Source of the DNA: a virus
Direction: 5' to 3' (one strand)
Length of the DNA: 44,611 bases
Virus record (IMG/VR): IMGVR_UViG_3300025168_000165
Location: 1 to 44,611 of that record
Within the stretch, counting starts at the first letter, position 1. The number at the start of each line of letters is the position of its first letter. The notes under the pieces were generated by a model. It ran no database searches, was not told the DNA's origin, and saw only the letters and a list, made by a program, of their open reading frames with translations. Below are positions 1,539-32,812 of this stretch, piece by piece. The translations under genes were made by a program, and so were the position numbers.

Positions 1539-2795
1539 ATGTCAGACATTTATACTAAAGATAACAGCGAAACCTCCTTGGAGCTTTTTAATAAGCGTAC
1601 AATATATCGTAATCAGCTGCGCGTTGACAACCCAGGTAATGTGGTAGATTTTTTTGAAGGAGAGAAGATATTATATGGCCGGATATCTCCTCGCTTCGAG
1701 CCTGTTGCAGTAGATCAAAGCAACTTGGCGTCTACCCGAGGAAGTGAACCACAGTCACCGGTTATGGCAGTTAATTTTGTTGCTGCAGTATTTGAGCAAA
1801 TGGTCCTTCAGTTTCAAAAAAGCATGGCTTCGGGACAAATTACCACAACAGATCCATATCTTTCTCAACTGAAGGCTTATAAGGCGTATGTCAACCCGCG
1901 CACAGTTTATACCACCTACACAGATGCGTACTACGATGCAATTGTCAAGAATTTCCGCATTTTAGATATTAAGGTAAAAGACTTCGATCACTTCATTGAA
2001 CATCTGATGCCCATTATAAAGGTTGCATTACCGCGGAAGCCACTAACTTTTCCTGGTTTTATAAAGAGCACCGATTGTTCTACCCTCTCGACTGGTTTGG
2101 CGATAGAAGTAGCTGATTTAAGATATTCGGATGACGAAGAGAAGGTCAGCGCTTTTATCGAAAGTAAAAACTGGCCCTTCTTTGTTAACGCTTGCAATTC
2201 ATATGGATTTATGATAGACTATAATGTACCTTGGAGAATAGTGGCAGATTTAAAATCAGATATTATGAAACAAATAGCCGCGCGTTATGGCTACCAATCA
2301 TTTGTGGCCAGCGGATTCAACAGCGCATGCGTAATATATTTGCGCAGTTTTATTTATGAACTAAAAACGTTATATGACAGAGTGAGGCTGCCACAGTTTA
2401 TTGAAATTGAAGAATGTATGGATGGTACCCTGATAGAGAGGGTGGTAGTACCCAAACAATATTCTCAAGATCAGCTAAATTATAATTATAATCTTTCTTA
2501 TTTTCTAAAAATATATTTGCAAATGAGAATAGAAGAAGAACAACCCGAATTGCCCCCAGAAGAAAAGGCACATATTATTCGTGAATATATTAATGTGACG
2601 AAGGCAACACACTCCCTTAAAGCGGTTGCGCACGGATTTGAAAGTATAATAAATAAAACATTTGACAAACGAGGCTCAGCAAGTTATATTGATAAACAGT
2701 TCAAAGCCCAAGCAGAAGCCGGCTTTAATCAAGGCACCCTTGACAACCTATTAATGAGCGACTTGTACACAGCAGATGATTTTTCAAACTATTGA
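1539..2795 (+). CDS. Unrecognised 418-residue protein, possibly virion-related
   Basis: I do not recognise this family. The protein is rich in Tyr, Phe and Ile and mostly helical in appearance. It has no Cys-pair motif, Walker motif, signal peptide or membrane segment. The C-terminal third (about 330-400) is charged (EEEQPELPPEEKAHIIREY). It follows the preceding probable virion gene after 10 bases without a strong Shine-Dalgarno at the usual spacing, so it may be translated from the same message. Its 3' end overlaps the polymerase gene by 20 bases. The pairing with the upstream gene suggests a shared structural role, while the overlap ties it to the replication genes; the sequence does not settle which. 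Confidence 0.5.
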   Translation: MSDIYTKDNSETSLELFNKRTIYRNQLRVDNPGNVVDFFEGEKILYGRISPRFEPVAVDQSNLASTRGSEPQSPVMAVNFVAAVFEQMVLQFQKSMASGQITTTDPYLSQLKAYKAYVNPRTVYTTYTDAYYDAIVKNFRILDIKVKDFDHFIEHLMPIIKVALPRKPLTFPGFIKSTDCSTLSTGLAIEVADLRYSDDEEKVSAFIESKNWPFFVNACNSYGFMIDYNVPWRIVADLKSDIMKQIAARYGYQSFVASGFNSACVIYLRSFIYELKTLYDRVRLPQFIEIEECMDGTLIERVVVPKQYSQDQLNYNYNLSYFLKIYLQMRIEEEQPELPPEEKAHIIREYINVTKATHSLKAVAHGFESIINKTFDKRGSASYIDKQFKAQAEAGFNQGTLDNLLMSDLYTADDFSNY

Positions 2796-3948
2796 CGATA
2801 AAACTGAATGCATCGGAGTTTATACCAACGGTGCACTACATTTTGAAGACCACCCCGCCAACCTGACAAAAACATGGAAATACAGTGGGTCGATTCAGGA
2901 TGAAGATGTAGAGTATGCGTGGATCCGGGCGCAGGGAGGCGATCTAATAACGTGTTGCCCACCAGAGCTATGTCCGGAGTTAGAGGCTACCCAAAAGAAG
3001 ATGCGTGCCTATGTAAAGTCATTTAAGATAGCTAAAGTTAATCTGAATGAGCATTGCATTTTTGACCTTATACCGCATGATTTTCTGATGCGTTTCTGCG
3101 AGATTAAGAACAAGATCACGGCCCACGTTTTCGAAGAATACGCAGAACCACCCAATTACCAGCACCTGTCAGACGTCCAGAAGCTTCTGCATAAAATTAG
3201 ATACCAGAAACTGAATTTAAACATGGAGAATAACCGAAGCCTTCTCTGTTCGACCCGAGATCGTAAAAAAATACAGTCCCTTATTTCTAACCACCACTAC
3301 GTGGATTATAATTTATTTGGTACCGTAACAGGGAGACTTACAACTCGACCCGATTCTTTTCCCATATTAACTTTGAAGAAGGAGTTGAGATCTATACTGA
3401 AACCCACTAACAACCTCTTTATTAGTTTAGATTATAATGGGGCCGAAGTGCGCACCTTGTTAGAACTTTGCGGAGAAGCACAACCCCAAGAGGACATACA
3501 CACTTGGAACGCCAAACATTTATTTGAACAGGATATTACACGAGAAGAATGTAAAGTCCGCTTTTTCGCGTGGTTATACGATCCCGCCTCTACCGACATA
3601 ACAACTTCTCATTATGATAAAGAAAAAGTACTTGACAAGTGGTACGATAACGGTTATATTACTACTCCATACCAACGAAAAATTGAAGTTGAGGAGAGAA
3701 AAGCATTGAACTACCTTATCCAAAGCACCACTGCTGATCGCGTTTTATCGAAGGCTGTTGAGATTGATCGGATGCTTGAAGGCCGGCCCTCCTTTATCTC
3801 TCATATCGTACATGACGAAATAGTCATAGATTATGATGATGAGGACCGGGATATTATAGTAGACATCAAAAAAATCTTTGAAGATGGGTACATGGCGAAC
3901 ATTCAAGGCGGGAAAGATTATTATAATCTAAAAGAGATAGAAGTATGA
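2776..3948 (+). CDS. Miniature family A (PolI-like) DNA polymerase
   Basis: Family A DNA polymerase of only 390 residues. The family hallmarks are in order: TGRLTTRP (about 184-191, compare TGRLSS), motif A LDYNGAEVRTL with the catalytic Asp (about 218-228), motif B REECKVRFFAWLYD (about 256-269), which keeps the Arg, Lys, Phe and Tyr of the O helix, the Q-helix-like ERKALNYLIQSTTADR, and motif C HIVHDEIVID with the second catalytic Asp. No 3'-5' exonuclease domain precedes them, and the stretch between motif B and the Q helix is about half the E. coli Pol I length. The start overlaps the upstream gene by 20 bases. A full DnaE polymerase sits 14 kb downstream, so this enzyme may serve gap filling, primer removal or repair. 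Activity is inferred from the retained residues. Confidence 0.88.
   Translation: MIFQTIDDKTECIGVYTNGALHFEDHPANLTKTWKYSGSIQDEDVEYAWIRAQGGDLITCCPPELCPELEATQKKMRAYVKSFKIAKVNLNEHCIFDLIPHDFLMRFCEIKNKITAHVFEEYAEPPNYQHLSDVQKLLHKIRYQKLNLNMENNRSLLCSTRDRKKIQSLISNHHYVDYNLFGTVTGRLTTRPDSFPILTLKKELRSILKPTNNLFISLDYNGAEVRTLLELCGEAQPQEDIHTWNAKHLFEQDITREECKVRFFAWLYDPASTDITTSHYDKEKVLDKWYDNGYITTPYQRKIEVEERKALNYLIQSTTADRVLSKAVEIDRMLEGRPSFISHIVHDEIVIDYDDEDRDIIVDIKKIFEDGYMANIQGGKDYYNLKEIEV
3945..3948 (+). other. ATGA stop-start overlap, polymerase to FtsZ-like gene
   Basis: The TGA stop of the small polymerase is shared with the ATG of the next gene. This four-base overlap recurs in the window (for example 9884, 16460, 24895, 25874, 27249, 40389) and indicates coupled translation of neighbouring genes. 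Confidence 0.85.
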
Positions 3949-6337: not shown

Positions 6338-7456
6338 ATGAACAGAATTCAATTCATCTTAGAAACAACCAAAGATCCCCTCTGGGAATCTAACAACGTA
6401 AGGACCATTTCGGTGGACTTTATCGAAGGTAGTGAGCAATCACTATCGCAAGTGCGACAAGGTGGGATTGATAATTCTCACCTTTCGGAATTGCAAGATA
6501 GCATTATCTTGCGAGGCCAAGAAGTCCCAATTACCATTGAGGACACAGGAGAAACTAATGAACTGGGTCAAACAGTTTATAAGTTGATCGATGGAGGTCA
6601 CCGCTTCTTAGCAATTACAAAATTGCGAAAGAAGAATAAACATGACTTGCGATGGTCGGTTATCCGAGCATATGTAACTCAATTTCAAGATGATTTTGAG
6701 AGAGTGCAATATCAACACAAGGCCAATGATCATTCATTGCCAGCCAAGAACAACTCAAATGATGATGCTGTTCTGTGGTTGAGTGACCTTGTACACACGG
6801 GTTTTACAGGTGCACCGCCAAATTTGGTGGCGTTGCTTGATAGCACAGCCCGAAACAAAACAGATCCTGACGCTTATGAGCAGGATCTGAGAGAGGCGTT
6901 GTCATTCCAGTTCCCAGATATGGGATCTCGACGACGTAACAACATCGTTCGGGGTTTTATGAAAAAAATCCCGGGTAAGTTCAAAACATATGATGGTGAA
7001 CGCGCAAGAGCGGATTTGCTGCGCCATGTTATGAACACTGAGGGGACTGCACTTCCTGAGAAGTATACGTTCGTTCTGGTTCGCGAAGTGAACCATGTGT
7101 TCCATAATGCCGCTGGTAACTGCCTGTCTGCTACTTTGGCCAACAAGGACAAGGATCGCGACATTGTTGCGATTGTTTGGACTAACAAGACAAGCGGGCG
7201 CAAGTCTAGCGATATTGATAATGATCGTGTTGAAGCGATTCGTAAAATCAACGAGCTTAACTCGCACAACCGTCTTGGTCGAGGTAAGAAGCTTGTTAAT
7301 CGAGTGTTTATTGCTCCACAAAAACTGGACGATAACGAAGAGATTGGCTTCTATGAGGTCCCAATGACCGGAAACAACAAGTTCAGCTTGTCTATGTCGA
7401 CCCGTGGTTGGGATACCACGCGCCCCGTAGGCAAACAAGAACTAGCTGCTAAGTAA
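6338..7456 (+). CDS. ParB/sulfiredoxin-fold domain protein
   Basis: 372 residues. The N-terminal part shows a ParB-like nuclease domain: an SVDFIEG strand, a helix with SELQDSIILRGQEVPI (about 49-64), and the box LIDGGHRFLAITKL (83-96) that matches the (D/E)GxHRxxA signature. The rest is charged and unassigned, and it may include a DNA-binding helical region (about 120-230). ParB-fold proteins in phages act as nucleases, CTP-switch clamps, or adaptors in modification or partition, and no parA is seen next to it. It has its own promoter and structured leader and ends in the fourth hairpin. Its place between SSB and the recombinase suggests a DNA-related role. Confidence 0.75.
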   Translation: MNRIQFILETTKDPLWESNNVRTISVDFIEGSEQSLSQVRQGGIDNSHLSELQDSIILRGQEVPITIEDTGETNELGQTVYKLIDGGHRFLAITKLRKKNKHDLRWSVIRAYVTQFQDDFERVQYQHKANDHSLPAKNNSNDDAVLWLSDLVHTGFTGAPPNLVALLDSTARNKTDPDAYEQDLREALSFQFPDMGSRRRNNIVRGFMKKIPGKFKTYDGERARADLLRHVMNTEGTALPEKYTFVLVREVNHVFHNAAGNCLSATLANKDKDRDIVAIVWTNKTSGRKSSDIDNDRVEAIRKINELNSHNRLGRGKKLVNRVFIAPQKLDDNEEIGFYEVPMTGNNKFSLSMSTRGWDTTRPVGKQELAAK

Positions 7457-14319: not shown

Positions 14320-14598
14320 ATGTTTGAGCCTTTAAATAGATATATTCAAATTGAAGTTGAACAGAACACACACGAAACAGAGACAGGGATACTTTTACCA
14401 GCCGACTTCGCGCCGAAAGAAGAAAGATATATTTCAGCTCGCATTTTGTCTTGGGCCCCCGATGTGCGTTTTGCAGATCAGCTGACTGCAGGCACTCAAA
14501 TCTTAATTGATACCTCAATGGCAGAGGAAATCAATGTTAATGGCACTACCACTCGTGTCATATTAGATAATTACGTATTAGGACTAATTAATAGGTAG
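14320..14598 (+). CDS. GroES/gp31-like cochaperonin
   Basis: 92 residues. The sequence follows the GroES beta-barrel: an N-terminal strand EPLNRYIQIEVE (3-14), a loop region ending GILLPADFAPKE that corresponds to the mobile loop, RYISARILSWAPDVR (a strand with the GroES VVAVG position), the AGTQILIDTSMAEEINVNG segment, and a C-terminal strand NYVLGLINR like the GroES end (diLaii). The central glycine-rich roof hairpin is reduced, as in T4 gp31. It would cap a GroEL ring during folding of virion proteins. A phage GroEL lies about 17 kb downstream, so the pair is encoded apart. It follows the reductase after 40 bases with the weak Shine-Dalgarno AAAGGA. Confidence 0.78.
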   Translation: MFEPLNRYIQIEVEQNTHETETGILLPADFAPKEERYISARILSWAPDVRFADQLTAGTQILIDTSMAEEINVNGTTTRVILDNYVLGLINR

Positions 14599-16463: not shown

Positions 16464-17335
16464 AGCACACACATGTAGCCGGCATCATCCCTGTTGCTGG
16501 GCTAAAAACTGATTTTGAATTAGATACTCCTCCGATTTTATTGCCGGTCGAGGCAGGCTTCACTGCGATTCAAAAATCAGTGTACGAGTGTGCGCTAGCT
16601 GGATGTCAGACCATTTGGATCGTGGCCAATAGTGACCTGGCTCCGATTGTGCGTAAGCGTATCGGTGAATGGGTATACGATCCAGTTTATTATAATCGTC
16701 TACAATATGGAGACAACTCAGACACTAGAAGAGAGGTTCCCATTTACTACGTTCCCATCTCGCCCAAAGACCGCGGCCGGCGAGATTCTTACGGGTGGTC
16801 GATATTAAATGGCATCTATGGTTCATGGCGCGCCGCTAACCATATCTCCAAGTGGATCGTTCCAGAGAAATATTTTATATCGTTCCCGATGAGCGCTCAT
16901 AATATACATGAAATTAGAAACCACAGAAAAGCAATAGCTGATCCACTCACTAATTTTTTTATGCAGTATGAAGGGGGCACTGTTTTAGATAACTTGCCAT
17001 TATCATTCACAATGAGAGGCAGTGATTATATTCAGTGCCGGCGCGATGTTAATAAAAGAACGACACGCGAATTTTATAACACTGAAGAAGGGGAGACCTA
17101 TCCTTCGAAAAAACTTCCATTAGAGGAGAGGTGGTCAGCCCGCCACTTTAACCTGTCCGAAGTTTTTGAAAAATTGAGTTGCAGTGAAGCACATATTTAC
17201 GAGCCAGAATGGTTCTATGATCTATCTACGTGGGCAGGCTACCGCAATTTTCTTTCTTCAGAAAATTGTATAAAAAAGCCCGCAGATAGCTTGACACGGC
17301 CGAGAAGCCATGGTATAATACCTTATAAAGCTTAA
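16460..17335 (+). CDS. Nucleotidyltransferase-like protein (sugar-nucleotide type)
   Basis: 291 residues, start overlapping the upstream stop as ATGA. The N-terminal part is laid out as a sugar-phosphate nucleotidyltransferase: VAGIIPVAGLKT (compare the nucleotide loop AAGxGTR, here without the basic residue), ILLPVEAGFTAIQKSVYECALAGCQTIWIVANSD (read as a strand, helix and strand, about 31-64), then IYYVPISPKDRGRRDSYGWSI (98-118) and a YFISFPMSAHNI stretch where the family has the acidic metal site. The missing basic loop residue leaves activity uncertain. It may work with the Rossmann-like neighbour and the phosphomannomutase-like protein at 34.8 kb in making an activated sugar. Confidence 0.68.
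   Translation: MKHTHVAGIIPVAGLKTDFELDTPPILLPVEAGFTAIQKSVYECALAGCQTIWIVANSDLAPIVRKRIGEWVYDPVYYNRLQYGDNSDTRREVPIYYVPISPKDRGRRDSYGWSILNGIYGSWRAANHISKWIVPEKYFISFPMSAHNIHEIRNHRKAIADPLTNFFMQYEGGTVLDNLPLSFTMRGSDYIQCRRDVNKRTTREFYNTEEGETYPSKKLPLEERWSARHFNLSEVFEKLSCSEAHIYEPEWFYDLSTWAGYRNFLSSENCIKKPADSLTRPRSHGIIPYKA
17291..17319 (+). promoter_or_regulatory. Sigma70 promoter of dnaE
   Basis: TTGACA at 17291-17296, 17-base spacer, TATAAT at 17314-17319 with an extended -10 (TGG). It lies within the last codons of the nucleotidyltransferase gene. It probably drives dnaE, the first ClpP-like gene and the J-domain gene. Confidence 0.92.
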
Positions 17336-17348
17336 TAGAGGAGGCATT

Positions 17349-20300
17349 ATGAATCGTATTGATTCTAAGATTAAATTTGTGGGTCTGCATGCACATAGCG
17401 TAGCAGGATCTATTTTCGATGCAATTGGGTACCCGCAGGCACATATGGATTTTGCATATGAGAATGGTAACGATGCGCTAGCACTGACTGATCACGGCAA
17501 TATGAACGGGTTGGCGTACCAGGTTTTACATGCTAAGAAGATGAAGGAAGAGGGTAAGGATTTTAAACCTATCTTTGGATGCGAGGCATACTTCATCCCC
17601 TCTATTGAAGAGTGGCGTTCTGAATACACTAAGGCTATGGAAGATAAGAAGCGCGCCCGTTCGGTTAAGAAAGACGAACAATCGGGAGCCACTGTAGAAG
17701 ATGAGGGTGCTTCCAAGAAGACACAAGACATCTTGCGGCGCCGGCGCCATCTAGTCCTTTTGGTGCAAAACCAGACAGGATTGAATAATCTATTTAAGCT
17801 GGTCTCAGAGAGCTACCAGCCCGAGAATTTTTATAGGTATCCTCGTATAGACTATAAGCTTTTAAAGAAGTACAACGAGGGTATTATAGCCGCTAGCGCG
17901 TGTCTAGGTGGGGTCTATGCTGGCAACTACTGGGAAAACCGCGAACAAGGTGACGAGGCTGTGTTGGAAGCCATGCGCGAGACGACACAGAACATGGTAG
18001 ATATTTTTGGTGACCGCTGGTATGCTGAAGTTCAGTGGAACAATATTAAAGAACAACATGAGCTTAACCAGTATGTTGTTCAGACGGCACAAGAGATGGG
18101 TGTTAGTTTGATCACTACCGCAGACAGCCACTACCCCACACCAACCGCTTGGAAAGATCGTGAATTGTACAAGCGTCTTGGTTGGCTCGGCAAGGGTCGT
18201 CCTTCGTGGGCAGACGAGGAATCACAGCTTCCCGATGGAGTCGAGGAAATTGGTTATGAGCTGTATCCAAAGAATGGTGATCAAATCTGGGAAAGCTACA
18301 AGCAATATTCAGAATCCACGGGGTTTGAGTACGATGATGATGTAGTCTTGAAAAGTATTGAAGAAACGCATAGGATTGCCCACGATAGGATCGAATCGTT
18401 TATGCCTGACAATACAGTTCGTCTGCCCGAATTCGTTGTGCCGGCCGGCTTCACCGCCACGCAGGCGCTTGTTAACTTTGCCCTAGAGGGCCTGAAAGAT
18501 AAGGGCCTCCACACGAATAAAGAATATACAGATCGTCTCCGCAGTGAGTTGAATGTTATCGATGACCGAGGCTTCTCTAAATATTTCCTCACAATGAAGT
18601 CTATTGTAGATGTGGCCACCGGTATGATGCTTACAGGCCCGGGCCGAGGATCCGCCGCTGGTTCTTTGGTAGCGTACGCCTTGAACATTACACAGGTCGA
18701 CCCGATTAAGTATGATCTTCTATTTTCTCGGTTCCTTCGTTCAGACGCTGAGGACTATCCAGATATCGATTACGATGTGTCGGATAGTATGGCCTTGAAG
18801 GAAAAGCTCGTCGAGATGTGGGGCGCCGATTGCGTCGCGCCAATCTCCAACTGGAATACACTGCAGCTTAAGTCCTTGATTAAGGATATTTCAAAGCTGT
18901 ATAACATTCCTTTCACCGAAGTGAACACAGTCACATCTATCATGATTAGAGAGGCCACTCCAGAAGCAAAGCGAAAGCATGGTATTAAGGCCGGCGTGTA
19001 TGCTCCCACGTGGGAAGAAGTCATGGAATTCTCTCCATCCCTGAGTGCCTACTTAAATAAATACCCAGAAGTCAAGACCCACGTTGAAGGTCTTGTTGGC
19101 CAAGTCCGCTCCTGCTCGCGACATGCCGGCGGCGTAGTCATCGCGGAAAACCTAGACCAAAGCATGCCGCTGATTAATTCAGGTGGTGTGCGACAAGCAC
19201 CGTGGGCAGAGGGTCAGAACGTACGACACCTTGAACCGATGGGTTTCATTAAATTCGATTTGCTTGGGCTATCTACCCTTAAGATGATGGAGGGTTGCAT
19301 CGAGCATATCCTGCGTCGTCATCACGGAGTGGAGAACCCAACTTTTGCACAAGTAAGAGAGTATTACGATACGAAGCTCCATCCAGATATCCTTGATATG
19401 AATGACACAGCGATCTACGAGAATATTTTTCACAAAGGAAAGTGGGCTGGTGTATTCCAGTTCACAGAGCATGGAGCCCAACAGTTCTGCGTAAGGGCGA
19501 AGCCCAACAACATCATTGATGTTTCAGCTATCACGTCTATCTTCAGGCCCGGCCCACTATCGGCCGGAGTAGATGCAGATTATGTAGAAGCCAAGGGACA
19601 CCCACAGCGTATCAGTTATCTGTCAGAAGAGGCGCGAGAACTCACCGAGGAGACTTACGGGTTCTTGATCTTCCAAGAGCAAATTGCTCTCCTGGCTCAC
19701 AAGCTTGGCGGTCTAACGCTGGACGAAGGTAATATGCTTCGCAAGGTTCTCACGAAGAAAGGAACAGGTAAGGGATCCGTCAAGGGCAAGCTCCATGATA
19801 AATTCATCAAGGGTTGTGTGGCTAAAAACATTAACATAGATGAGGCACAAGCCCTTTGGGATAAGTTTGAATTCTTCTCTGGATATGGCTTTAACAAGTC
19901 GCATGCTGTAAGCTATTCGATCATCTCTTATCAGTGCGCATGGTTATGGAACTACTATCCAGCAGAATGGATGGCCGCGTTCTTGGACAAAGAGCCAGAA
20001 GTGCGGAAGGAGAAGGCCATTAATATTGCCAAGAAGTTTGGGTTTGATATCGAACCACTTGATGTCAACAAGTCGGGAACTGTCTGGGAGATTAGTCAAG
20101 ATGGGAACACACTGATTCAGCCGCTGACGTCAATCAAAGGTTTGGGAATGGCAGCCATCGAGCAAATACTTGCTAATCGGCCCATTAACAGTGCAGAAGA
20201 TATGTTGTTTAATGAAAACATTACTTATTCAAAATTGAACAAGAAGTCTCTTGATGCCCTCTGCCGCGGCGGCGCGCTTGACAATATTGTGGACGATAGG

Positions 20301-20780
20301 TTCACCGGCCGAAAACATTTTTGGTCAGCATGTATTGTAGACCGCCCCAAGAACGCAAAAAAGTTGGCAGAGAATCTAGAGCTTTATCGACCAGAAGGAG
20401 ACTTCAGTGAAACTGAGATTATCCAGTTCAAGTCAGATTTGACAGGCGTGTTTCCCATGAACCTTGTTATCAGCGTAGAAACTATACAAAAACTACAGGA
20501 TAAATTTATCCCGCCGATCTCTGAGTTCGATCAAGAACTTCAAGTATGCTGGTTCATCCCTCGTAAGATCGTCCCAAGAAAAACTAAGAAGGGTAAAGAT
20601 TATTGGATTGTTGAGGTGATTGACTCTAACAACGAACTAACTAGAATAAGGTGCTGGGGTATCAAACCCGAAAAAGATCGGGTGCATCTTAACCGCCCGT
20701 ATATGGCTAGATTGAACTATGACGAAAACTGGGGATTTTCTACTTATGCGGTTGGTAAAACATTTCGACTATTAGGGTAA
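17349..20780 (+). CDS. dnaE: DNA polymerase III alpha subunit (DnaE-type, family C)
   Basis: 1143 residues, close to bacterial DnaE (about 1160). An N-terminal PHP domain starts KFVGLHAHSVAGSIFD (9-24) with ALTDHGNMNGL (about 45-55) and IFGCEAYF. The polymerase core follows with GPGRGSAAGSLVAY (430-443) and the catalytic acidic pair in YPDIDYDVSD (about 470-479), then QVRSCSRHAGGVVI, and GYGFNKSHAVSYSIISYQ (about 844-861). A helix-hairpin-helix-like TSIKGLGMAAIEQI lies near 930, and a C-terminal OB-like segment ends the protein. No separate epsilon proofreader or clamp was seen in this window. The enzyme probably replicates the phage genome; its coexistence with the small PolA is unusual. Strong Shine-Dalgarno (GAGGAGG). 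Confidence 0.95.
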   Translation: MNRIDSKIKFVGLHAHSVAGSIFDAIGYPQAHMDFAYENGNDALALTDHGNMNGLAYQVLHAKKMKEEGKDFKPIFGCEAYFIPSIEEWRSEYTKAMEDKKRARSVKKDEQSGATVEDEGASKKTQDILRRRRHLVLLVQNQTGLNNLFKLVSESYQPENFYRYPRIDYKLLKKYNEGIIAASACLGGVYAGNYWENREQGDEAVLEAMRETTQNMVDIFGDRWYAEVQWNNIKEQHELNQYVVQTAQEMGVSLITTADSHYPTPTAWKDRELYKRLGWLGKGRPSWADEESQLPDGVEEIGYELYPKNGDQIWESYKQYSESTGFEYDDDVVLKSIEETHRIAHDRIESFMPDNTVRLPEFVVPAGFTATQALVNFALEGLKDKGLHTNKEYTDRLRSELNVIDDRGFSKYFLTMKSIVDVATGMMLTGPGRGSAAGSLVAYALNITQVDPIKYDLLFSRFLRSDAEDYPDIDYDVSDSMALKEKLVEMWGADCVAPISNWNTLQLKSLIKDISKLYNIPFTEVNTVTSIMIREATPEAKRKHGIKAGVYAPTWEEVMEFSPSLSAYLNKYPEVKTHVEGLVGQVRSCSRHAGGVVIAENLDQSMPLINSGGVRQAPWAEGQNVRHLEPMGFIKFDLLGLSTLKMMEGCIEHILRRHHGVENPTFAQVREYYDTKLHPDILDMNDTAIYENIFHKGKWAGVFQFTEHGAQQFCVRAKPNNIIDVSAITSIFRPGPLSAGVDADYVEAKGHPQRISYLSEEARELTEETYGFLIFQEQIALLAHKLGGLTLDEGNMLRKVLTKKGTGKGSVKGKLHDKFIKGCVAKNINIDEAQALWDKFEFFSGYGFNKSHAVSYSIISYQCAWLWNYYPAEWMAAFLDKEPEVRKEKAINIAKKFGFDIEPLDVNKSGTVWEISQDGNTLIQPLTSIKGLGMAAIEQILANRPINSAEDMLFNENITYSKLNKKSLDALCRGGALDNIVDDRFTGRKHFWSACIVDRPKNAKKLAENLELYRPEGDFSETEIIQFKSDLTGVFPMNLVISVETIQKLQDKFIPPISEFDQELQVCWFIPRKIVPRKTKKGKDYWIVEVIDSNNELTRIRCWGIKPEKDRVHLNRPYMARLNYDENWGFSTYAVGKTFRLLG

Positions 20781-20786
20781 CCAATC

Positions 20787-21392
20787 ATGAACATATTAAA
20801 AACATTTAGCCCGCTATTGAAAGAAGCAAAGCTTATTGACAACCTACCTATTGTAATTCGGGTACGAAAATTTGATGAGACAGCAGCAAAGGAATTTTCT
20901 TCGCTTATTAGCAAAGCTCAGAATACTGGCCAGCCAGTTGTCCCCGTGGTTATAGATAGTTATGGGGGTCAGGTGTACAGCTTGATGTCAATGATATCCG
21001 ACATAAAACACTGTCGTATACCCGTAGCAACTGTTGTACAAGGGAAAGCAATGTCCTGCGGTGCAATTTTGTTTAGCTTTGGCGCAGAGGGAATGCGTTA
21101 TATGGATCCAGATGCAACGTTAATGATACACGATGTTAGCTCGATGGCCTGGGGCAAAGTAGAAGAGGTTAAGGTGAGCGCAGACGAGACGGATCGCCTA
21201 AACCAGAAGATCTATACGATGATGGCAGAAAATTGTGGAAAACATAAGGAATATTTTCTCGACATAGTGCACGACAAGGGCCATGCTGATTGGTTTTTGG
21301 AAGCTGACGAATGTAAAAAACACAATCTTGCCAATCACTTACGGGTACCAGAATTAAAAATAGAGACAAAGGTTAAGTTCGACTTTAAATAA
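20787..21392 (+). CDS. ClpP-like serine protease 1 (S14)
   Basis: 201 residues of ClpP fold. Seen: VPVVIDSYGGQVYSLMSMI (residues 53-71, the GG loop), QGKAMSCGAILFSFGA with nucleophile Ser90 (85-100), DATLMIHDVSSMAWG with His115 (109-123), and HADWFLEADE with Asp168. The triad is therefore complete. The N-terminus is not that of a canonical ClpP axial loop, and the handle insert is short. Possible roles are capsid maturation, head scaffold removal or regulated proteolysis together with a host Clp ATPase. It lies 6 bases after dnaE and 13 before the J-protein. A second, unlike ClpP sits at 28.8 kb. Confidence 0.87.
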   Translation: MNILKTFSPLLKEAKLIDNLPIVIRVRKFDETAAKEFSSLISKAQNTGQPVVPVVIDSYGGQVYSLMSMISDIKHCRIPVATVVQGKAMSCGAILFSFGAEGMRYMDPDATLMIHDVSSMAWGKVEEVKVSADETDRLNQKIYTMMAENCGKHKEYFLDIVHDKGHADWFLEADECKKHNLANHLRVPELKIETKVKFDFK

Positions 21393-21405: not shown

Positions 21406-22119
21406 ATGTCTATAACCCGCAAGATCAAATGGAAGCGCAATGTCGAGCACCTTAAGTTCATGTATTATGAGCTAGAATCCTTGAAAGAGCTTACTAGTTC
21501 GGCCGCCGGCGAGTTTCAAGAATATTATGAAACGTTTTGCACCAACAATAACGTTGATCGCCAAGGGCTAAACGAAGAACACCAGGACAGAGTAAGCGAA
21601 TTATATGGTTCCGGAGAAGAAGAGCCACCCAGCGCAAACGAGGATGAACCCGATATAGATTGCGCGGACCAAGCGCCCATAGTTTTGCATACCAACCCCT
21701 CCAAAGTTATAAGCGTTCCGGAAACAGTTGAGGATAAAGAGATGCATGAAGCGTTCTCTAAGCTCTTCAAAAGTATCGCCCTCATTCTCCATCCGGATCG
21801 TGTGGATAAAAACTTACCCGACCATATCCAAAAAGATATGATAAGTAGGTTCCAATTGGCCAACAAGGCAATGGATGAGAAAAAGTATTTTATTTTGTTG
21901 GATATTTGTTTTGATTATGATATCAAACCACCGCGCAACCAAGCTCAACAATTGAAGTGGATGAAGAGAGAGATGGAAAACATGAAACAGCAAATCAGTA
22001 AGATAAAGAGCACCTATAGTTATAAGTTTGCAGAGTCAGATACTGATACTGAGCGCGATACACTGATAGAACAGTTTTTATATCAATTATTTCGGTTTAA
22101 AATGCCAGAAAAGAGTTGA
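21406..22119 (+). CDS. J-domain (DnaJ-like) protein
   Basis: 237 residues. The centre to C-terminal half carries a J-domain (about 112-170): EAFSKLFKSIALILHPDRVDKN with the HPD signature at 129-131, then SRFQLANKAMDEKKYFILLDI as the third helix. J-domains stimulate the ATPase of Hsp70 (DnaK). The N-terminal 110 residues are helical, then acidic, and probably select a client. The C-terminal part is Lys/Met-rich helix (KREMENMKQQISKIK) and may be a coiled coil. It would recruit the host DnaK to a phage target, perhaps replication proteins as lambda P and O need, or feed clients to the phage chaperonin. Its stop codon lies within the -35 of the next promoter. Confidence 0.85.
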   Translation: MSITRKIKWKRNVEHLKFMYYELESLKELTSSAAGEFQEYYETFCTNNNVDRQGLNEEHQDRVSELYGSGEEEPPSANEDEPDIDCADQAPIVLHTNPSKVISVPETVEDKEMHEAFSKLFKSIALILHPDRVDKNLPDHIQKDMISRFQLANKAMDEKKYFILLDICFDYDIKPPRNQAQQLKWMKREMENMKQQISKIKSTYSYKFAESDTDTERDTLIEQFLYQLFRFKMPEKS

Positions 22120-25529: not shown

Positions 25530-25877
25530 ATGAGCGCTCGACACAACCTTAAATTTGTAGAGGCCGCTATCCTTAGACTGCAGGCGCAGCTGGCATCAGA
25601 GATAGCATCACTGGAGGGCTTACTTAAAGATCCGTCAGCATCGACGCACCACCCGGATTTGGTCGACACAATATGCGAGATTGCACATCGATGCGTGAGC
25701 GTAACCGGTGCAATTTCAATGCTGCAGAAAAGTATTGGCGTCGTACCAGCCGGCCCTGTAGTAGCGCCGGCAACTCCCCCTTTGACAGAAAAAGATTTAA
25801 AAGAACGCTCGGCTGCTTTTAGAAAGTCCATTGGTGACCCGCCAGCCCCTCCCCCTAAAAAGAAGAAGAAGACATGA
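25530..25877 (+). CDS. 115-residue unrecognised protein with Pro-rich, poly-Lys tail
   Basis: No family recognised. The N-terminal half looks helical (LKFVEAAILRLQAQLASEIASLEGLL), while the C-terminal third is rich in Pro, Ala and Lys and ends in PPKKKKKT, which could bind DNA or acidic partners. It begins one base after the thioredoxin stop and overlaps the GuaB-like start as ATGA. A structural, DNA-associated or partner role is possible; nothing in the sequence decides. Confidence 0.6.
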   Translation: MSARHNLKFVEAAILRLQAQLASEIASLEGLLKDPSASTHHPDLVDTICEIAHRCVSVTGAISMLQKSIGVVPAGPVVAPATPPLTEKDLKERSAAFRKSIGDPPAPPPKKKKKT

Positions 25878-26923
25878 TCACTATCGAAGGACGAACTTTG
25901 TTTAATCGGGGATTATCTTATGATGATGTACTGCTGGTGCCCAAATATTCTGATATTGAATCCAGATCTGAAATAGATATAACCGCTGATTTGGGAAATA
26001 ACTTATCCTTAAGGGTACCTATTCTTTCGTCACCTATGGATACAGTGTCAGGCGCCGAGATGGCTACTGCATTAAGTAAGATAGGAGGCGCTAGCATCCT
26101 ACATCGTTATAATACAGTAATAGAGCAAGCGGGAATGTTATCCCAGGCTACGGACAACGGCGCCACCAATATTGGTATCGCTGTAGGCGTTAGTGGAGAC
26201 TATCTTGAGCGCGCCCTCTGCGGTGTGAAATTAGGCGCCACCTTTGTGTGCGTCGACGTCGCCCATGGTCACCACATCATGATGAAAGAAGCTGTTAGCG
26301 TATTACGTTCAGAGCTAGGCCCAACTGTTCATATCATGGCCGGCAATGTAGCTACGCTAGCCGGGGTTAACGATTTGGCTGACTGGGGCGCGGACAGTGT
26401 ACGTTGTAATATAGGTGGCGGCTCCATTTGTTCCACTCGTATTCAGACTGGCCACGGAGTACCAGGCCTGCAGACCATTATGGATTGCGCCCAAACTGAC
26501 CGCGATGTAAAGATTATAGCAGACGGAGGAATTCGTAATTCCGGCGATATTGTAAAAGCATTAGCCGCCGGCGCCGATGCGATTATGTGTGGTTCGCTCT
26601 TGGCAGGCACACAAGAAACGCCGGGTGTCGCTTATAAGGATTCACAAGGTCAGTCGTGGAAGGAATACCGAGGGATGGCATCCAAAGAGGCGCAAATGAG
26701 TTGGCGAGGAAAATACTCGTCCTTCGAAGGTGTTTCAGCGCGCGTGCCCTGCCGCGGCCCCGTAGCTGAGGTGGTAAACGACTTAGAGAAGGGAATACGT
26801 TCTGGTCTCTCATACTCTGGTTCACGAACAATTGCTGAGTTGCAAGCGTACGCGGAGTTCATAGTCCAAACACCGGCCGGACAATCAGAGAGTAATACTC
26901 ATATCACTCATAGGAATTGGTAA
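25874..26923 (+). CDS. IMP dehydrogenase / GMP reductase family protein without CBS domains
   Basis: 349 residues of the GuaB/GuaC TIM barrel. Seen: GLSYDDVLLVPKYSDI (14-29), PILSSPMDTVSG (49-60), a barrel-core Asp in DVAHGHH (128-134), GNVATLAGVNDLADWGADSVR, the active-site loop GGGSICSTRIQTG with Cys186 (181-193), DGGIRNSGDIVKALAAGADAIM, and YRGMASKEAQ. The CBS pair of typical IMP dehydrogenase is absent and the length is that of GMP reductase, while EGVSARVPCRGPVAEVV resembles IMP dehydrogenase. It therefore makes XMP from IMP or IMP from GMP, controlling guanine supply during phage replication. Confidence 0.88.
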   Translation: MITIEGRTLFNRGLSYDDVLLVPKYSDIESRSEIDITADLGNNLSLRVPILSSPMDTVSGAEMATALSKIGGASILHRYNTVIEQAGMLSQATDNGATNIGIAVGVSGDYLERALCGVKLGATFVCVDVAHGHHIMMKEAVSVLRSELGPTVHIMAGNVATLAGVNDLADWGADSVRCNIGGGSICSTRIQTGHGVPGLQTIMDCAQTDRDVKIIADGGIRNSGDIVKALAAGADAIMCGSLLAGTQETPGVAYKDSQGQSWKEYRGMASKEAQMSWRGKYSSFEGVSARVPCRGPVAEVVNDLEKGIRSGLSYSGSRTIAELQAYAEFIVQTPAGQSESNTHITHRNW

Positions 26924-28354: not shown

Positions 28355-28383
28355 TTGACAAAGTAATTGCGAGATGTTATAAT
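28355..28383 (+). promoter_or_regulatory. Sigma70 promoter overlapping a hairpin
   Basis: TTGACA at 28355-28360, 17-base spacer, TATAAT at 28378-28383 with extended -10 (TGT). Two bases after the -10 the inverted repeat begins, so the expected start (near 28390) is inside the repeat. Confidence 0.9.
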
Positions 28384-28385
28384 AT

Positions 28386-28417
28386 AACCACTGCATGATT
28401 GCGGTGGTTATTTTTTT
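28386..28417 (+). terminator. Terminator-like hairpin at the transcription start
   Basis: AACCACTGC (28386-28394) pairs with GCGGTGGTT (28401-28409) with one G-T wobble, then A and seven T: a strong intrinsic terminator. It ends the acidic-protein message arriving from upstream. A transcript that starts at the overlapping promoter near 28390 would lack the first bases of the left arm and should not fold the full stem. Confidence 0.75.
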
Positions 28418-28428
28418 GGGGATGCAAG

Positions 28429-28821
28429 ATGGAATGGTTATTACACCTGTTAGTGTTTTTCTTTGGGTACTACACCTGTAAAACGTTTTATGTGTTTAGG
28501 AGCGGAGCGCTTACAGTGGGCATGTTTAAAATGACACAGCTGACCGCGCTGATGATCCTATCCCGCAGCATGGAACAGTATGCATATGTTAAGACATTCG
28601 GTGAGATGCAGCTTAAGCAAAAAGGCGCCTCCGAAAAAGTTATTTCCAATTATCATATCTACGTTGATAACGATGCAAACTTTTTTAAAACCAAATCAAT
28701 TAAGAGTATACTTTCTACAACACCTAGTTACTTTAAGCACCTTCTGGAATTTGAAGACTGGGAGACTGCGATGAGGTACCTTAATGACAATAAGCCAATT
28801 GTTAATCAGATTCTTAAATAA
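28429..28821 (+). CDS. 130-residue protein with an N-terminal membrane segment
   Basis: ATG at 28429, preceded by GGGG at 28418-28421. The frame reads further upstream into the hairpin, so this start is preferred. Hydrophobic segment at residues 2-15 (EWLLHLLVFFFGYY), then a soluble part of about 110 residues with a basic centre and helical appearance (MILSRSMEQYAYVKTF). A single-pass membrane protein with cytoplasmic or periplasmic tail; not recognised. It comes from its own promoter and precedes the second ClpP-like gene by 10 bases. Confidence 0.68.
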   Translation: MEWLLHLLVFFFGYYTCKTFYVFRSGALTVGMFKMTQLTALMILSRSMEQYAYVKTFGEMQLKQKGASEKVISNYHIYVDNDANFFKTKSIKSILSTTPSYFKHLLEFEDWETAMRYLNDNKPIVNQILK

Positions 28822-28831
28822 AGGGGGCAAG

Positions 28832-29467
28832 ATGATTAAAAAAATTAAAAGCTTAATAAGCTCAGAGCCAGAAGTAGCCGGCACCAATGAGAAAAAAATT
28901 GTTATCCTTGATCCAAATGCGGGAGGGCCTCCAGAGCCAGATCTCCGCATCGTCGGATTATTTTCAGATGTGCAAGAAGAAAAGGTCGCAGAGATCGTGC
29001 ATGCACTAATCTATTTGGACGAAGTCAACAAGCTCACACCACCTGAAGAGCAACAACCAATTAAATTTTATATTTCTACGTATGGTGGGAGTGCCGACGA
29101 CATGTTCGCTCTTTACGATATCATACGTCAAGCAAAAGAGACTAGCGAAATTCATACTATCGGCTTAGGCAAGGTAATGTCGGCTGGTGTTTTGCTGCTA
29201 GCGTCAGGCACAAAAGGTAAGCGACAAATCGGCAAGAACTGTCGTGTTATGATCCATTCAGTGATGGGTGGAAATCATGGCTCGTTGCACAACATGATGA
29301 ATGAACTGGAAGCTATTGAGCAGCTACAAGATATGTACTGCGATGCTCTGATTGCGGAGACAAAGATGACTAGAGCCAAACTTAAAAAGATGATAGAACG
29401 CAAAGTGAATGTCTATTTAACTGCAGAAGAAGCGATTGAAATGGGCATCGCAGACATTATTATTTAA
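28832..29467 (+). CDS. ClpP-like serine protease 2 (S14) with altered triad
   Basis: 211 residues from the ATG at 28832, which has a strong Shine-Dalgarno (AAGGGGG); the longer in-frame reading upstream is rejected. ClpP fold: PIKFYISTYGGSADDMFALYD (76-96), GLGKVMSAGVLLLASGTKG with nucleophile Ser117 (111-129), CRVMIHSVMGGNHG with His142, and YLTAEEAIEMGIADIII at the end (195-211), matching the ClpP C-terminus. At the catalytic Asp position (DRFLSA in E. coli) the sequence is NVYLTA, so the third residue is Asn193. Activity may be lowered or depend on a partner. It may be the head-maturation protease or form a mixed ring with ClpP-like 1. Confidence 0.87.
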   Translation: MIKKIKSLISSEPEVAGTNEKKIVILDPNAGGPPEPDLRIVGLFSDVQEEKVAEIVHALIYLDEVNKLTPPEEQQPIKFYISTYGGSADDMFALYDIIRQAKETSEIHTIGLGKVMSAGVLLLASGTKGKRQIGKNCRVMIHSVMGGNHGSLHNMMNELEAIEQLQDMYCDALIAETKMTRAKLKKMIERKVNVYLTAEEAIEMGIADIII

Positions 29468-29479
29468 AGGAAAAAACAC

Positions 29480-31174
29480 ATGTCAGAATTGAGCGATATT
29501 TTAAAAGAAGAGTACATCAAAAAAAACCAGCAACTTGATCTTAAAGTGCTGCTGAGTATGATTACCGAGGCTGTGGAGGATACAATAAAAGCCCCTGTTA
29601 ACGAGGAAGTTAGCATTCCTTCCGGCGACGATCAGGAGACTTTGGAAATGATCTTGAAGATGATACCAAACATCGAGGTATCGGAACTTGGGTGGTCAGA
29701 TGTACGCGCCGATGGCCAAGGTGGTGAAATAAAAGGCGCCCAAAGACAACTATTAGAGGATTACCTGAAAAATATCCAGGGCACCGACTTCGCCGATAAG
29801 ATCCGCAGTATTTCTCAATTCTATGATGATGGAGTTGACATGATGGTAGAGCAGGCAGGAGAAGACCGCACCAAGAGGATCGTTCAGGTCATATCATACT
29901 TGGTTTTTTATAAAACTTTGACAAAGGTTATCACAAACTTTAACGCGTCTTCTGCGGGCTTTAGTTTCGAATCTTTCCTCGCTGCCTTGGTGGACGGAGA
30001 ACAGATTCCAACTGGTAATAAAACAATTGCAGATTATCTAGACCGAGCCTCTGGTGAAACAATCCCCGTCAGTTTGAAGCTCTACAAAGAAGGTAACCTG
30101 GAAGTCGGAGGTAGTTATACTGATTTAGTGAACGATATGGTAGACCCCAAATATCCCCAAGCCATCAACGGAGGCATGCGCTATGTTATTTGTACAAAAG
30201 AATTTGACAAACAAGAAAAAGGCTCATCACCTCTAGAGCAAGAAGGGAAGATTAATTTCTATCAGTTTGATTTTAATTTGAAGAATATTGCAGATATACT
30301 TTTGAATTCTAAATATTCATATGTAATAAGGATGCCTGAAATGGTCATGAGCGCATTGGCCTCTGGCCAGCAGTCAGGCACCGCAGAGTTGCTTGGCCTT
30401 GCTTCGGCCGACAAAGCATTATCGGCCGAAGAGTTGACCCCGTTATTTAAAACAGAATTAGAAAAGCAGATAGCTGCCATCGCCGAAGAGAACCCGCAGA
30501 GCCCAATACGCAATGTAAGAGAAAAGGCCCTTGATAATTTAATGGCTGCTCTTAATTGGGAAAAGAACGATGAGTTGTTTAACCAAGACAAGCGCCGCGG
30601 CAAAGGTAAGATGTCCTCTATTGCTGTGGGTAACTGGGTAAAAAGCAATTACAAGTCTGCCCCAGCTGTACACACAGATTTAAAAAATGCTATTGTTAAC
30701 GCTAATGCTGCCGTGATGCAGTCACAGGCCGCGGCCACCAAGAAAAGTGAGAGAAATCAGCAAATTGAAGATATGGTCAAAAACAACGAATTTCTTTCGG
30801 CCGAAGAATCTGCGCGCCAATATAGTATGTTAGGCGTTCGACAGAGGAAGCAGGCTCTTTTGAGTAGCTATGGCTATTTGAAAACTCTGCACTTTGCCTT
30901 GAACCAAACCCAGTCGACAAACCCCGGCGAGCCCACAAATACTGAGTTTGTTGGCTCCATCATGATTGGCCAAGCACAAGTAGGTAAGGTCGTCGCTGAT
31001 ATCCGCGAGATACTTAACCAAGAAGTTATGGAAATTTTCCAATCCCTTAAAATTCTATCTGATAGTTTGAACCAGTACTTCGCTGGTGGCCTTGAAAATG
31101 ATTCGCTAGCGAGTGCGTCAATATCTAATGCGGAAAATATCAGCTCAAAAGAAATTCTTCAATCTGATAAATAA
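29480..31174 (+). CDS. 564-residue unrecognised protein with a possible nuclease-like core
   Basis: No family confidently recognised. In the middle (about 155-215) the run FSFESFLAALVDGE, then TIADYLDRASGETI and PVSLKLYKEGNLEVGGSY, has a Glu in a helix, an acidic residue and an SLK, which loosely fits a PD-(D/E)XK layout; that could be coincidence. The C-terminal third is helical and Gln/Ala-rich (NANAAVMQSQAAATKKSER) and could form a coiled coil. It follows ClpP-like 2 by 12 bases and precedes the groEL promoter. It may be a virion protein, a nuclease or both, as large virion proteins can carry nuclease folds. Confidence 0.6.
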   Translation: MSELSDILKEEYIKKNQQLDLKVLLSMITEAVEDTIKAPVNEEVSIPSGDDQETLEMILKMIPNIEVSELGWSDVRADGQGGEIKGAQRQLLEDYLKNIQGTDFADKIRSISQFYDDGVDMMVEQAGEDRTKRIVQVISYLVFYKTLTKVITNFNASSAGFSFESFLAALVDGEQIPTGNKTIADYLDRASGETIPVSLKLYKEGNLEVGGSYTDLVNDMVDPKYPQAINGGMRYVICTKEFDKQEKGSSPLEQEGKINFYQFDFNLKNIADILLNSKYSYVIRMPEMVMSALASGQQSGTAELLGLASADKALSAEELTPLFKTELEKQIAAIAEENPQSPIRNVREKALDNLMAALNWEKNDELFNQDKRRGKGKMSSIAVGNWVKSNYKSAPAVHTDLKNAIVNANAAVMQSQAAATKKSERNQQIEDMVKNNEFLSAEESARQYSMLGVRQRKQALLSSYGYLKTLHFALNQTQSTNPGEPTNTEFVGSIMIGQAQVGKVVADIREILNQEVMEIFQSLKILSDSLNQYFAGGLENDSLASASISNAENISSKEILQSDK

Positions 31175-31177
31175 ACC

Positions 31178-31206
31178 TTGACAAAGTTTTGATTTAAGAT
31201 TATAAT
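31178..31206 (+). promoter_or_regulatory. Sigma70 promoter of groEL
   Basis: TTGACA at 31178-31183, 17-base spacer, TATAAT at 31201-31206, no extended -10. The ATG lies 22 bases downstream of the -10, so the leader is very short, with AGAGG as a modest Shine-Dalgarno. Confidence 0.88.
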
Positions 31207-31228: not shown

Positions 31229-32812
31229 ATGAGTCGAACTTACGACGACAACCAAACACTGCAACAGAAGATTTTGAGAGGCGCAAACATATTGGCAGAC
31301 AATGTCTCTTCTACCCTGGGCCCCAGGGGGAGAAATGTTTTGTTACAAGAAAAAGATAAGATGCCATTTATCACCAAAGACGGAGTAACAGTCGCTGCGT
31401 TTGTGGAGCTAGAAGATCCGATGGAGAACGCGGCCGCCCAAATAATTAGACAAGCTGCTGTGGAGACTAACAACCACGCCGGCGACGGAACTACCACTGC
31501 TACAGTGTTAGCCCGGGCTATCCTAAGAGAATCACAGAAATTTGTAGCCTCCGGAGTTTCACCGATAGAACTTCAGAGAGGTATCAACCTAGCTGTTACT
31601 GAGGTAGTACACAACTTGAAAGAGATCTCGCGTCCGATTACTAGCGCAGAAGATATCCAGCACATCGCCACAATTTCAGCCAACAACGATGAAACTATCG
31701 GAAAGCTAATCGCTATGGCAGTTGATAAAGTCGGCCAGGATGGCTCCATAACTATCGATGAATCCAGATCACTGGAGACTTTAGTTGATATTACTGAAGG
31801 CTTCCGCATTCCCGCTGGGTTTTGTGCGGGCGCATTTGTAACAGACGATCGCCGCAACACTATGGTACACGAGGAGCCTCTAGTTCTTGTAACCGATTAT
31901 AAGATTTCTAATGTAGAGACAATCTTGCCTATCCTAGAAATGGTAGCCCGTGAAGGGCGCCCCTTGATCTTTGTTGCAGAAGAGGTCGAGGGTCAGGCGC
32001 TCTCCGCTATGATAATGAATGCTATACGAGGCACGCTTAAGATTGCGGCCATCAAGGCTCCCCTCTATGGAGAAGAGCGCCGTAACCTACTTAGCGATCT
32101 AGCAACTTCCGTGGGTGCTAATTTTATTACACGCGAGGGAGAGAAAAACCTATCCGATGTCAAACTATCTGATTTAGGAGTTGCAAAATCAATTGAGAGT
32201 ACCAAGTACGACACAATTATTGTTGGAGGAGGGTGCGACCATGAAGAGGTAGAGAGGAAAATAGAAAACCTCAAAGCACAAATACAAAGCACAGACTCAC
32301 TCCCTGAATGTGAGCGACTACAAGGTCGGATCAGTCGGCTTTCCTCTGGAGTAGCAGTAATTCGTGTAGGAGGCTCCACAGAAGTTGAGATGACAGAGAA
32401 AAAGCACCGCATCGAGGATGCACTAGAAGCAGTACGCTCTGCGCAAGAAGAAGGCATTGTTCCCGGTGGTGGTACAGCGCTTCTGCGAGCAGCTAGTTCT
32501 TTAATCATCACCACTGAGCGATCAGATCAGGCCCTCGGTGCCTCTATAATTCAGGCTGCGTGTCGCGAACCACTTCGCCAGATGGCGATTAACGCCGGCG
32601 AATCTGCAGACATTATTATGGGGCAGATAAACCTTGGCGACGACAACCCCAATATGGGCTGGGATTTCCGGCGACAAGAGTTAACCGATCTATTTAAATC
32701 AGGGATAATTGACCCTGCCAAGGTTACACGCATCGCACTACAGAATGCAGCGAGTTGTGCGGGTACCTTGATCACTACTAATTTTGGTATAATCCAAACG
32801 GAGGATAAATGA
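31229..32812 (+). CDS. groEL: GroEL-like chaperonin
   Basis: 527 residues, nearly full length against bacterial GroEL (about 545), lacking the C-terminal Gly-Gly-Met tail. It forms double rings that enclose folding proteins with a GroES-type cap. Seen: STLGPRGRNVLLQ (28-40), the phosphate loop; DGVTVAAF with Asp51 (51-58); AGDGTTTATVLARAI with Asp86 (84-98); an apical region around 190-330, less conserved; then RIEDALEAVRSAQEEGIVPGGGTALL with the catalytic Asp of the family, and LLITTEDK-like end replaced by IIQTEDK. The apical domain differs from the host type, so client range and cap may be specific. The GroES-like partner is at 14.3 kb. Confidence 0.95.
   Translation: MSRTYDDNQTLQQKILRGANILADNVSSTLGPRGRNVLLQEKDKMPFITKDGVTVAAFVELEDPMENAAAQIIRQAAVETNNHAGDGTTTATVLARAILRESQKFVASGVSPIELQRGINLAVTEVVHNLKEISRPITSAEDIQHIATISANNDETIGKLIAMAVDKVGQDGSITIDESRSLETLVDITEGFRIPAGFCAGAFVTDDRRNTMVHEEPLVLVTDYKISNVETILPILEMVAREGRPLIFVAEEVEGQALSAMIMNAIRGTLKIAAIKAPLYGEERRNLLSDLATSVGANFITREGEKNLSDVKLSDLGVAKSIESTKYDTIIVGGGCDHEEVERKIENLKAQIQSTDSLPECERLQGRISRLSSGVAVIRVGGSTEVEMTEKKHRIEDALEAVRSAQEEGIVPGGGTALLRAASSLIITTERSDQALGASIIQAACREPLRQMAINAGESADIIMGQINLGDDNPNMGWDFRRQELTDLFKSGIIDPAKVTRIALQNAASCAGTLITTNFGIIQTEDK

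Follow-up and report, generated by a model that had tools for sequence, protein, structure and literature searches.

Genes and features of the window

The window, meaning the whole stretch of DNA that was analysed, is an IMG/VR virus record, linear and 44,611 bases long, which is probably a fragment of a virus genome; its main genes all lie on the + strand. The phage is a marine T4-type phage; the T4-type markers gp23 capsid protein and gp21 protease are present in its large relatives and fall outside the window fragment. Three chaperone-related genes follow one another on one strand in the order GroES, J and GroEL (Table 1), and all three open reading frames were found where the earlier note had placed them. 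That note had described the set as spread over 17 kb. The spread is real, but the total span is 18.5 kb. Two ClpP-like peptidase genes, which it had overlooked, also occupy the GroES-GroEL stretch.

Table 1. Positions of the chaperone-related genes, the peptidase genes and the GroEL promoter in the window.
Feature	Position	Strand	Remarks
GroES/gp31-like co-chaperonin	14320..14598	+	92 aa; Pfam, PHROG, AlphaFold model
ClpP-like peptidase a	20787..21392	+	201 aa; directly 5' of J; Ser-His-Asp aligned with ClpP
J-domain protein	21406..22119	+	237 aa; closes the run dnaE, ClpP-like a, J
ClpP-like peptidase b	28784..29467	+	227 aa; about 2 kb 5' of GroEL; Ser and His kept
Sigma-70 promoter of GroEL	31178..31206	+	TTGACA-17-TATAAT; perfect consensus, kept in relatives
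GroEL-type (group I) chaperonin	31229..32812	+	527 aa; GGM tail missing, catalytic residues kept

Several other genes are of note in their own right. A DnaE-type polymerase III alpha subunit (17349-20780) shares this phage fragment with a 390-aa protein (2776-3948) that is similar in its C-terminal part to phage DNA polymerase I (phrog_17). A ParB-like protein (6338-7456) is encoded in what is presumably a lytic T4-type phage, and the product of 25874-26923 belongs to PHROG 9582, annotated as dehydrogenase (E=1.3e-94). Proteins of 564 aa (29480-31174, between ClpP-like b and GroEL) and 1,213 aa (35654-39295) are without a significant Pfam or PHROG family match.

The co-chaperonin and the chaperonin

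The GroES gene begins 40 bases 3' of a class II ribonucleotide reductase gene and ends 37 bases 5' of an amidase gene. Its product scores 22.0 bits against Pfam Cpn10 (cut-off 21.1) and matches the GroES family phrog_3188 with E=1.5e-5, while a tblastn search for cultured relatives of this protein found none. An AlphaFold model built with 41 sequences has a pLDDT of 87.8. It matches Cpn10 structures with Z scores of about 8-10 (maximum 9.9), as expected of a Cpn10 beta-barrel fold, and it superimposes on T4 gp31 in the GroEL complex (2cgt) with a Z score of 9.1 and 1.9 A over 68 residues. The mobile-loop motif TGILLP occupies residues 22-27, and the loop pattern [GS]I[VLM]LP is kept in most family members. 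The roof connection (residues 46-59) is short: its length of about 14 residues is near the 13 of gp31 and below the roughly 20 of E. coli GroES, in a by-eye count based on the sequences and on the strand limits of the GroES model. The protein is thus a Cpn10-type co-chaperonin with a GroEL-binding loop and a shortened, gp31-like roof.

The chaperonin is full length, with 229.7 bits across the whole Pfam domain, a match to phrog_5725 at E=4.6e-138 and 43% identity to E. coli GroEL. The residues K51, D52, D87 and D398 are present in the window protein and in 37/37 family sequences. As judged from its sequence, this is an intact group I chaperonin gene. The earlier description of it as nearly complete was right as to GroEL and understated its extent, since only the disordered tail is missing; none of the family GroELs read has a GGM tail. 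That loss and the reduced roof of the cap, both claimed previously, are borne out by the sequences and the cap model.

The surface of the ring that would receive the cap is largely retained. In the window, the apical positions L234, L237, L259, V263I, V264M and F204 are kept or conservatively replaced, and across the family the cap-contact positions L237, L259 and N265 occur in all 37 GroELs and L234 in 30 of them. Y203 of E. coli GroEL is important for binding both cap and substrate; the corresponding residue is Ala in the window and in 32/37 GroEL sequences. R197, D83 and E461 of the E. coli protein take part in allosteric or inter-ring contacts, and they are replaced in nearly all family members, in a comparison made with E. 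coli GroEL only.

Bacterial contamination or recent capture of GroEL from a host was rejected as an origin of the gene, the nearest bacterial GroELs found being about 45-48% identical as against up to 96% for viral contigs. The statement that phage-encoded GroEL is uncommon holds among isolate records (287/50,697), but not within the marine lineage considered here, where it is standard.

The GroEL promoter is a perfect sigma-70 consensus 51 bases upstream of the gene, which has its own leader. At this site, at least 11 of 12 consensus positions match in 36/41 relatives, compared with 1.7% of random places. The upstream regions of GroES and J in the relatives, scored for the same consensus, gave nothing clearly above background. 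The proposal of separate promoters for the three genes is therefore valid for GroEL alone. The GroEL promoter looks like a host-type promoter, and its sequence would suggest early expression. Two further perfect sigma-70 sites were observed in the window. One (17291-17319) lies immediately 5' of dnaE. The other, within 28355-28411, has a strong hairpin of terminator type (28384-28411) directly behind it, which makes an odd pairing of promoter and terminator.

The constancy of the cap and ring was assessed in 45 viral records searched with family profiles. Both genes are present in 37 of them, always with GroES first, on the same strand and with starts 13.7-20.2 kb apart; every GroEL-bearing record with enough upstream sequence (37/37) has GroES. 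Seven GroEL records lack GroES, and in these the contig reaches no further than 13.6 kb upstream of GroEL. When records were retrieved separately by means of their GroES, GroEL was found in 12/12 of those with enough room, 15.0-18.4 kb away, and the 11 records of this set that lack GroEL have at most 17.7 kb of room. The GroELs range from 55 to 96% identity to that of the window, and near-duplicates among the records bring the number of independent cases below 37. Both the synteny and the co-occurrence may reflect shared descent as well as function.

Because co-occurrence is complete in both directions, the cap and ring form, on this genomic evidence, an obligate pair in this marine T4-type lineage, in line with the earlier suggestion that they are a cognate pair. 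A different reading is that the cap serves the host GroEL, as T4 gp31 does, while the phage ring acts alone on other clients in the manner of the EL, OBP and AR9 chaperonins. Gp31 and CocO provide a precedent for the first half and the co-chaperonin-independent phage rings for the second (PMC9598537), and the two genes are non-adjacent and differ in promoter. This reading is nevertheless unlikely, given the complete co-occurrence and a ring in which most of the hydrophobic cap-binding positions are retained, as are the catalytic residues of a group I chaperonin that depends on a cap.

The J-domain protein and the ClpP-like peptidases

The J-protein is the weakest identification of the three. 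It reaches 14.1 bits against Pfam DnaJ, below the cut-off of 27.8, although a distant family member, G035, exceeds that cut-off with 28.7 bits. The His-Pro-Asp motif is invariant in 21/21 aligned family members and is found in 49/50 family matches (fetched loci, duplicates counted), the remaining one ending at a contig edge. In the window protein it occupies residues 129-131, between predicted helices at 108-128 and 139-157, and the model contains a three-helix bundle at residues 107-173. When the family profile was compared with the PDB, 33/35 matches were J-domain proteins (best E=0.0023). Foldseek and VIA-align searches with the model returned general helical matches, with DnaJ not among the matches listed, and for this reason the protein is termed a divergent J-domain protein, which in all likelihood it is. 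A tblastn search for cultured relatives of the window J-protein found none. Chance resemblance was ruled out for GroES, J and GroEL by the profile matches, the conservation of HPD and the GroEL residues.

Unlike the cap and ring, J is not constant. It is present in 24/37 cap-ring records, in 23 between GroES and GroEL and in one elsewhere, and its distribution on the GroEL tree requires at least six gains or losses. The other 13 intervals lack it. In 11 of these that were fetched, a hidden or divergent J gene is not the explanation, as the HPD-containing open reading frames were only DNA polymerase, spurious or unrelated. The unit is therefore formed by cap and ring, to which J is an accessory; this contradicts the earlier view of a three-part unit. 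Similarly, the relay by which J would route clients from host DnaK to the phage ring is possible but not essential, as so many relatives do without J, and it cannot stand as a required step. No phage Hsp70 was found in the 15 records in which it was sought, so J would act on the host DnaK.

It is about an even chance that J, considered by itself, has nothing to do with the chaperonin and instead takes over host DnaK in the interest of replication or of heat-shock control, as would be compatible with the main explanation given below. The gene starts 13 bases after ClpP-like a, which itself follows the DnaE-type polymerase gene, and it closes this dnaE-ClpP-like run downstream of the perfect sigma-70-type site at 17291; it has also been gained and lost independently of GroES and GroEL. 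The J-protein Rki of RB43 binds DnaK and stabilises sigma-32 and has no generic cochaperone activity (PMC3486835). The layouts outside the J-domain differ, however, in that the domain is N-terminal in Rki and lies after residue 105 in the window protein.

Both ClpP-like proteins are close to true ClpP, although the catalytic Asp appears to be absent from ClpP-like b. They hold fixed places between GroES and GroEL, b in 36/37 records and a in 28/37. A role as head (prohead) protease is unlikely, because gp21 is encoded separately in the large relatives. The regularity of these genes, their probable exclusion from head maturation and the host-type, early look of the GroEL promoter would all be in keeping with a general cassette for proteostasis or host takeover, in which ring, cap, J and the two ClpP-like proteins keep up the folding and turnover of a broad range of phage and host proteins during infection, with no special role for the capsid protein as client. 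Searches of large relatives for a Clp/Hsp100 ATPase found none and, with Hsp70 likewise missing, such a cassette would be incomplete and dependent on host partners. We regard this reading as possible but doubtful.

A more specific connection between the cap and the peptidases is suggested by the cap family profile, whose top sequence match in the PDB is Chlamydomonas Cpn11 (7ekq, E=1.1e-6), a protein that also carries a GILLP loop. In Chlamydomonas the Cpn11/20/23 cap docks on the chloroplast ClpP (PMC8889267). By analogy, one cap might serve two machines, closing the phage GroEL over the capsid protein and docking on a phage ClpP-like peptidase. The shared loop and the fact that ClpP-like b is as constant as the ring are the basis of this idea, which we consider very improbable.

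The capsid protein as a probable client and comparison with known systems

A T4-type Gp23 match was obtained in 10/15 searched records; the window gave none, nor did four fragments of 50-74 kb. In seven relatives the gp23-type proteins are 587-607 aa long (62-65 kDa) and about 30% identical to T4 gp23, which has 521 aa and 56.0 kDa; the variable middle part is longer than in the T4 protein. The gene lies about 27-34 kb upstream of GroES, and the gp21 protease is also present. T4 gp23 is unable to fold with GroES and requires gp31, a larger cage being thought to be the reason (PMC3012670). The bigger capsid protein fits in with the reduced roof of the cap and with a ring that has lost its tails, and the size of the capsid protein in relatives lends support to the earlier suggestion of adaptation to a large client. 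The gp23-type gene is known from the relatives and lies outside the window, so that its product is a candidate client of the window proteins.

Based on this evidence, the explanation that we favour, with a probability of roughly 0.6, is that phages of this lineage possess a full group I chaperonin of their own, a phage-specific cage whose main client is an oversized gp23-type capsid protein, with J as a DnaK-recruiting accessory. The gp31-like cap would bind the phage GroEL ring to form a folding cage, which may be enlarged by the reduced roof of the cap and the loss of the C-terminal tails of the ring, and which would act mainly on the phage's own major capsid protein. The ring would be made from its own strong sigma-70-type promoter, and the cap would be expressed as part of a transcription unit further upstream, to which the ribonucleotide reductase gene also belongs. 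J would recruit host DnaK, as RB43 Rki does, without being an obligatory step in a transfer of clients from DnaK to GroEL. If this explanation is right, the lineage offers a natural triplet of cap, ring and client under phage selection, and with it a testing ground for the size limit of the chaperonin cage, namely whether a cap with a reduced roof and a ring without tails can accept a capsid protein of 62-65 kDa. It would also suggest that an entire marine lineage of T4-type phages no longer depends on the host GroEL to fold its capsid protein, and would add to the known J-proteins a phage family unaccompanied by a phage Hsp70.

T4 gp31 and RB49 CocO are likewise Cpn10-fold phage caps with a reduced roof, and gp23 and gp21 of the T4 type are common to these systems. 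In T4 the host GroEL is used, whereas the present lineage encodes a ring of its own, and its gp23-type protein exceeds that of T4 by 66-86 residues. Marine et al. 2017 (ISME J 11:2479) reportedly described marine viral GroEL that is deeply diverged from that of bacteria and accompanied by a small-subunit gene. The virioplankton GroEL/GroES carriers of that study very probably overlap the present lineage. To our knowledge, it does not describe the J-protein, the ClpP-like pair, the promoter or the link to gp23. A later paper also refers to it for ocean viral chaperonins (Marine et al. 2017, as cited in PMC7185714).

Phages with both GroEL and GroES were already known (PMC7185714), among them Vibrio phage Pv27 (PMC12063606). 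The Flavobacterium Immutovirus also has both chaperonin genes; its GroEL is the closest cultured match (44%), and its capsid protein is among the closest matches to that of the lineage (49%). In contrast to the present arrangement, with the genes 14-20 kb apart, its groES and groEL are adjacent. EL, OBP and AR9 encode a GroEL-like ring, as here, yet these chaperonins are independent of a co-chaperonin; those of OBP and AR9 form single rings, and those of EL and AR9 were assayed on endolysin, not on capsid protein (PMC9598537). These precedents count against the explanation favoured here.

Among phage J-proteins, which are also known from moraphages (PMC12619734), the closest parallel is Rki of the T4-related phage RB43, which bears HPD, acts on host DnaK and has 237 aa like the window protein; no accompanying phage ring is reported in the accessible sections of its description (PMC3486835). 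Phage GroEL/GroES pairs and phage J-proteins were thus each already known separately. What is new, as far as we have checked, is the strict, fixed and non-adjacent pairing of cap and ring in a T4-type lineage, together with the GroEL promoter, a J family that members can lack, the two ClpP-like genes and the connection with an oversized gp23.
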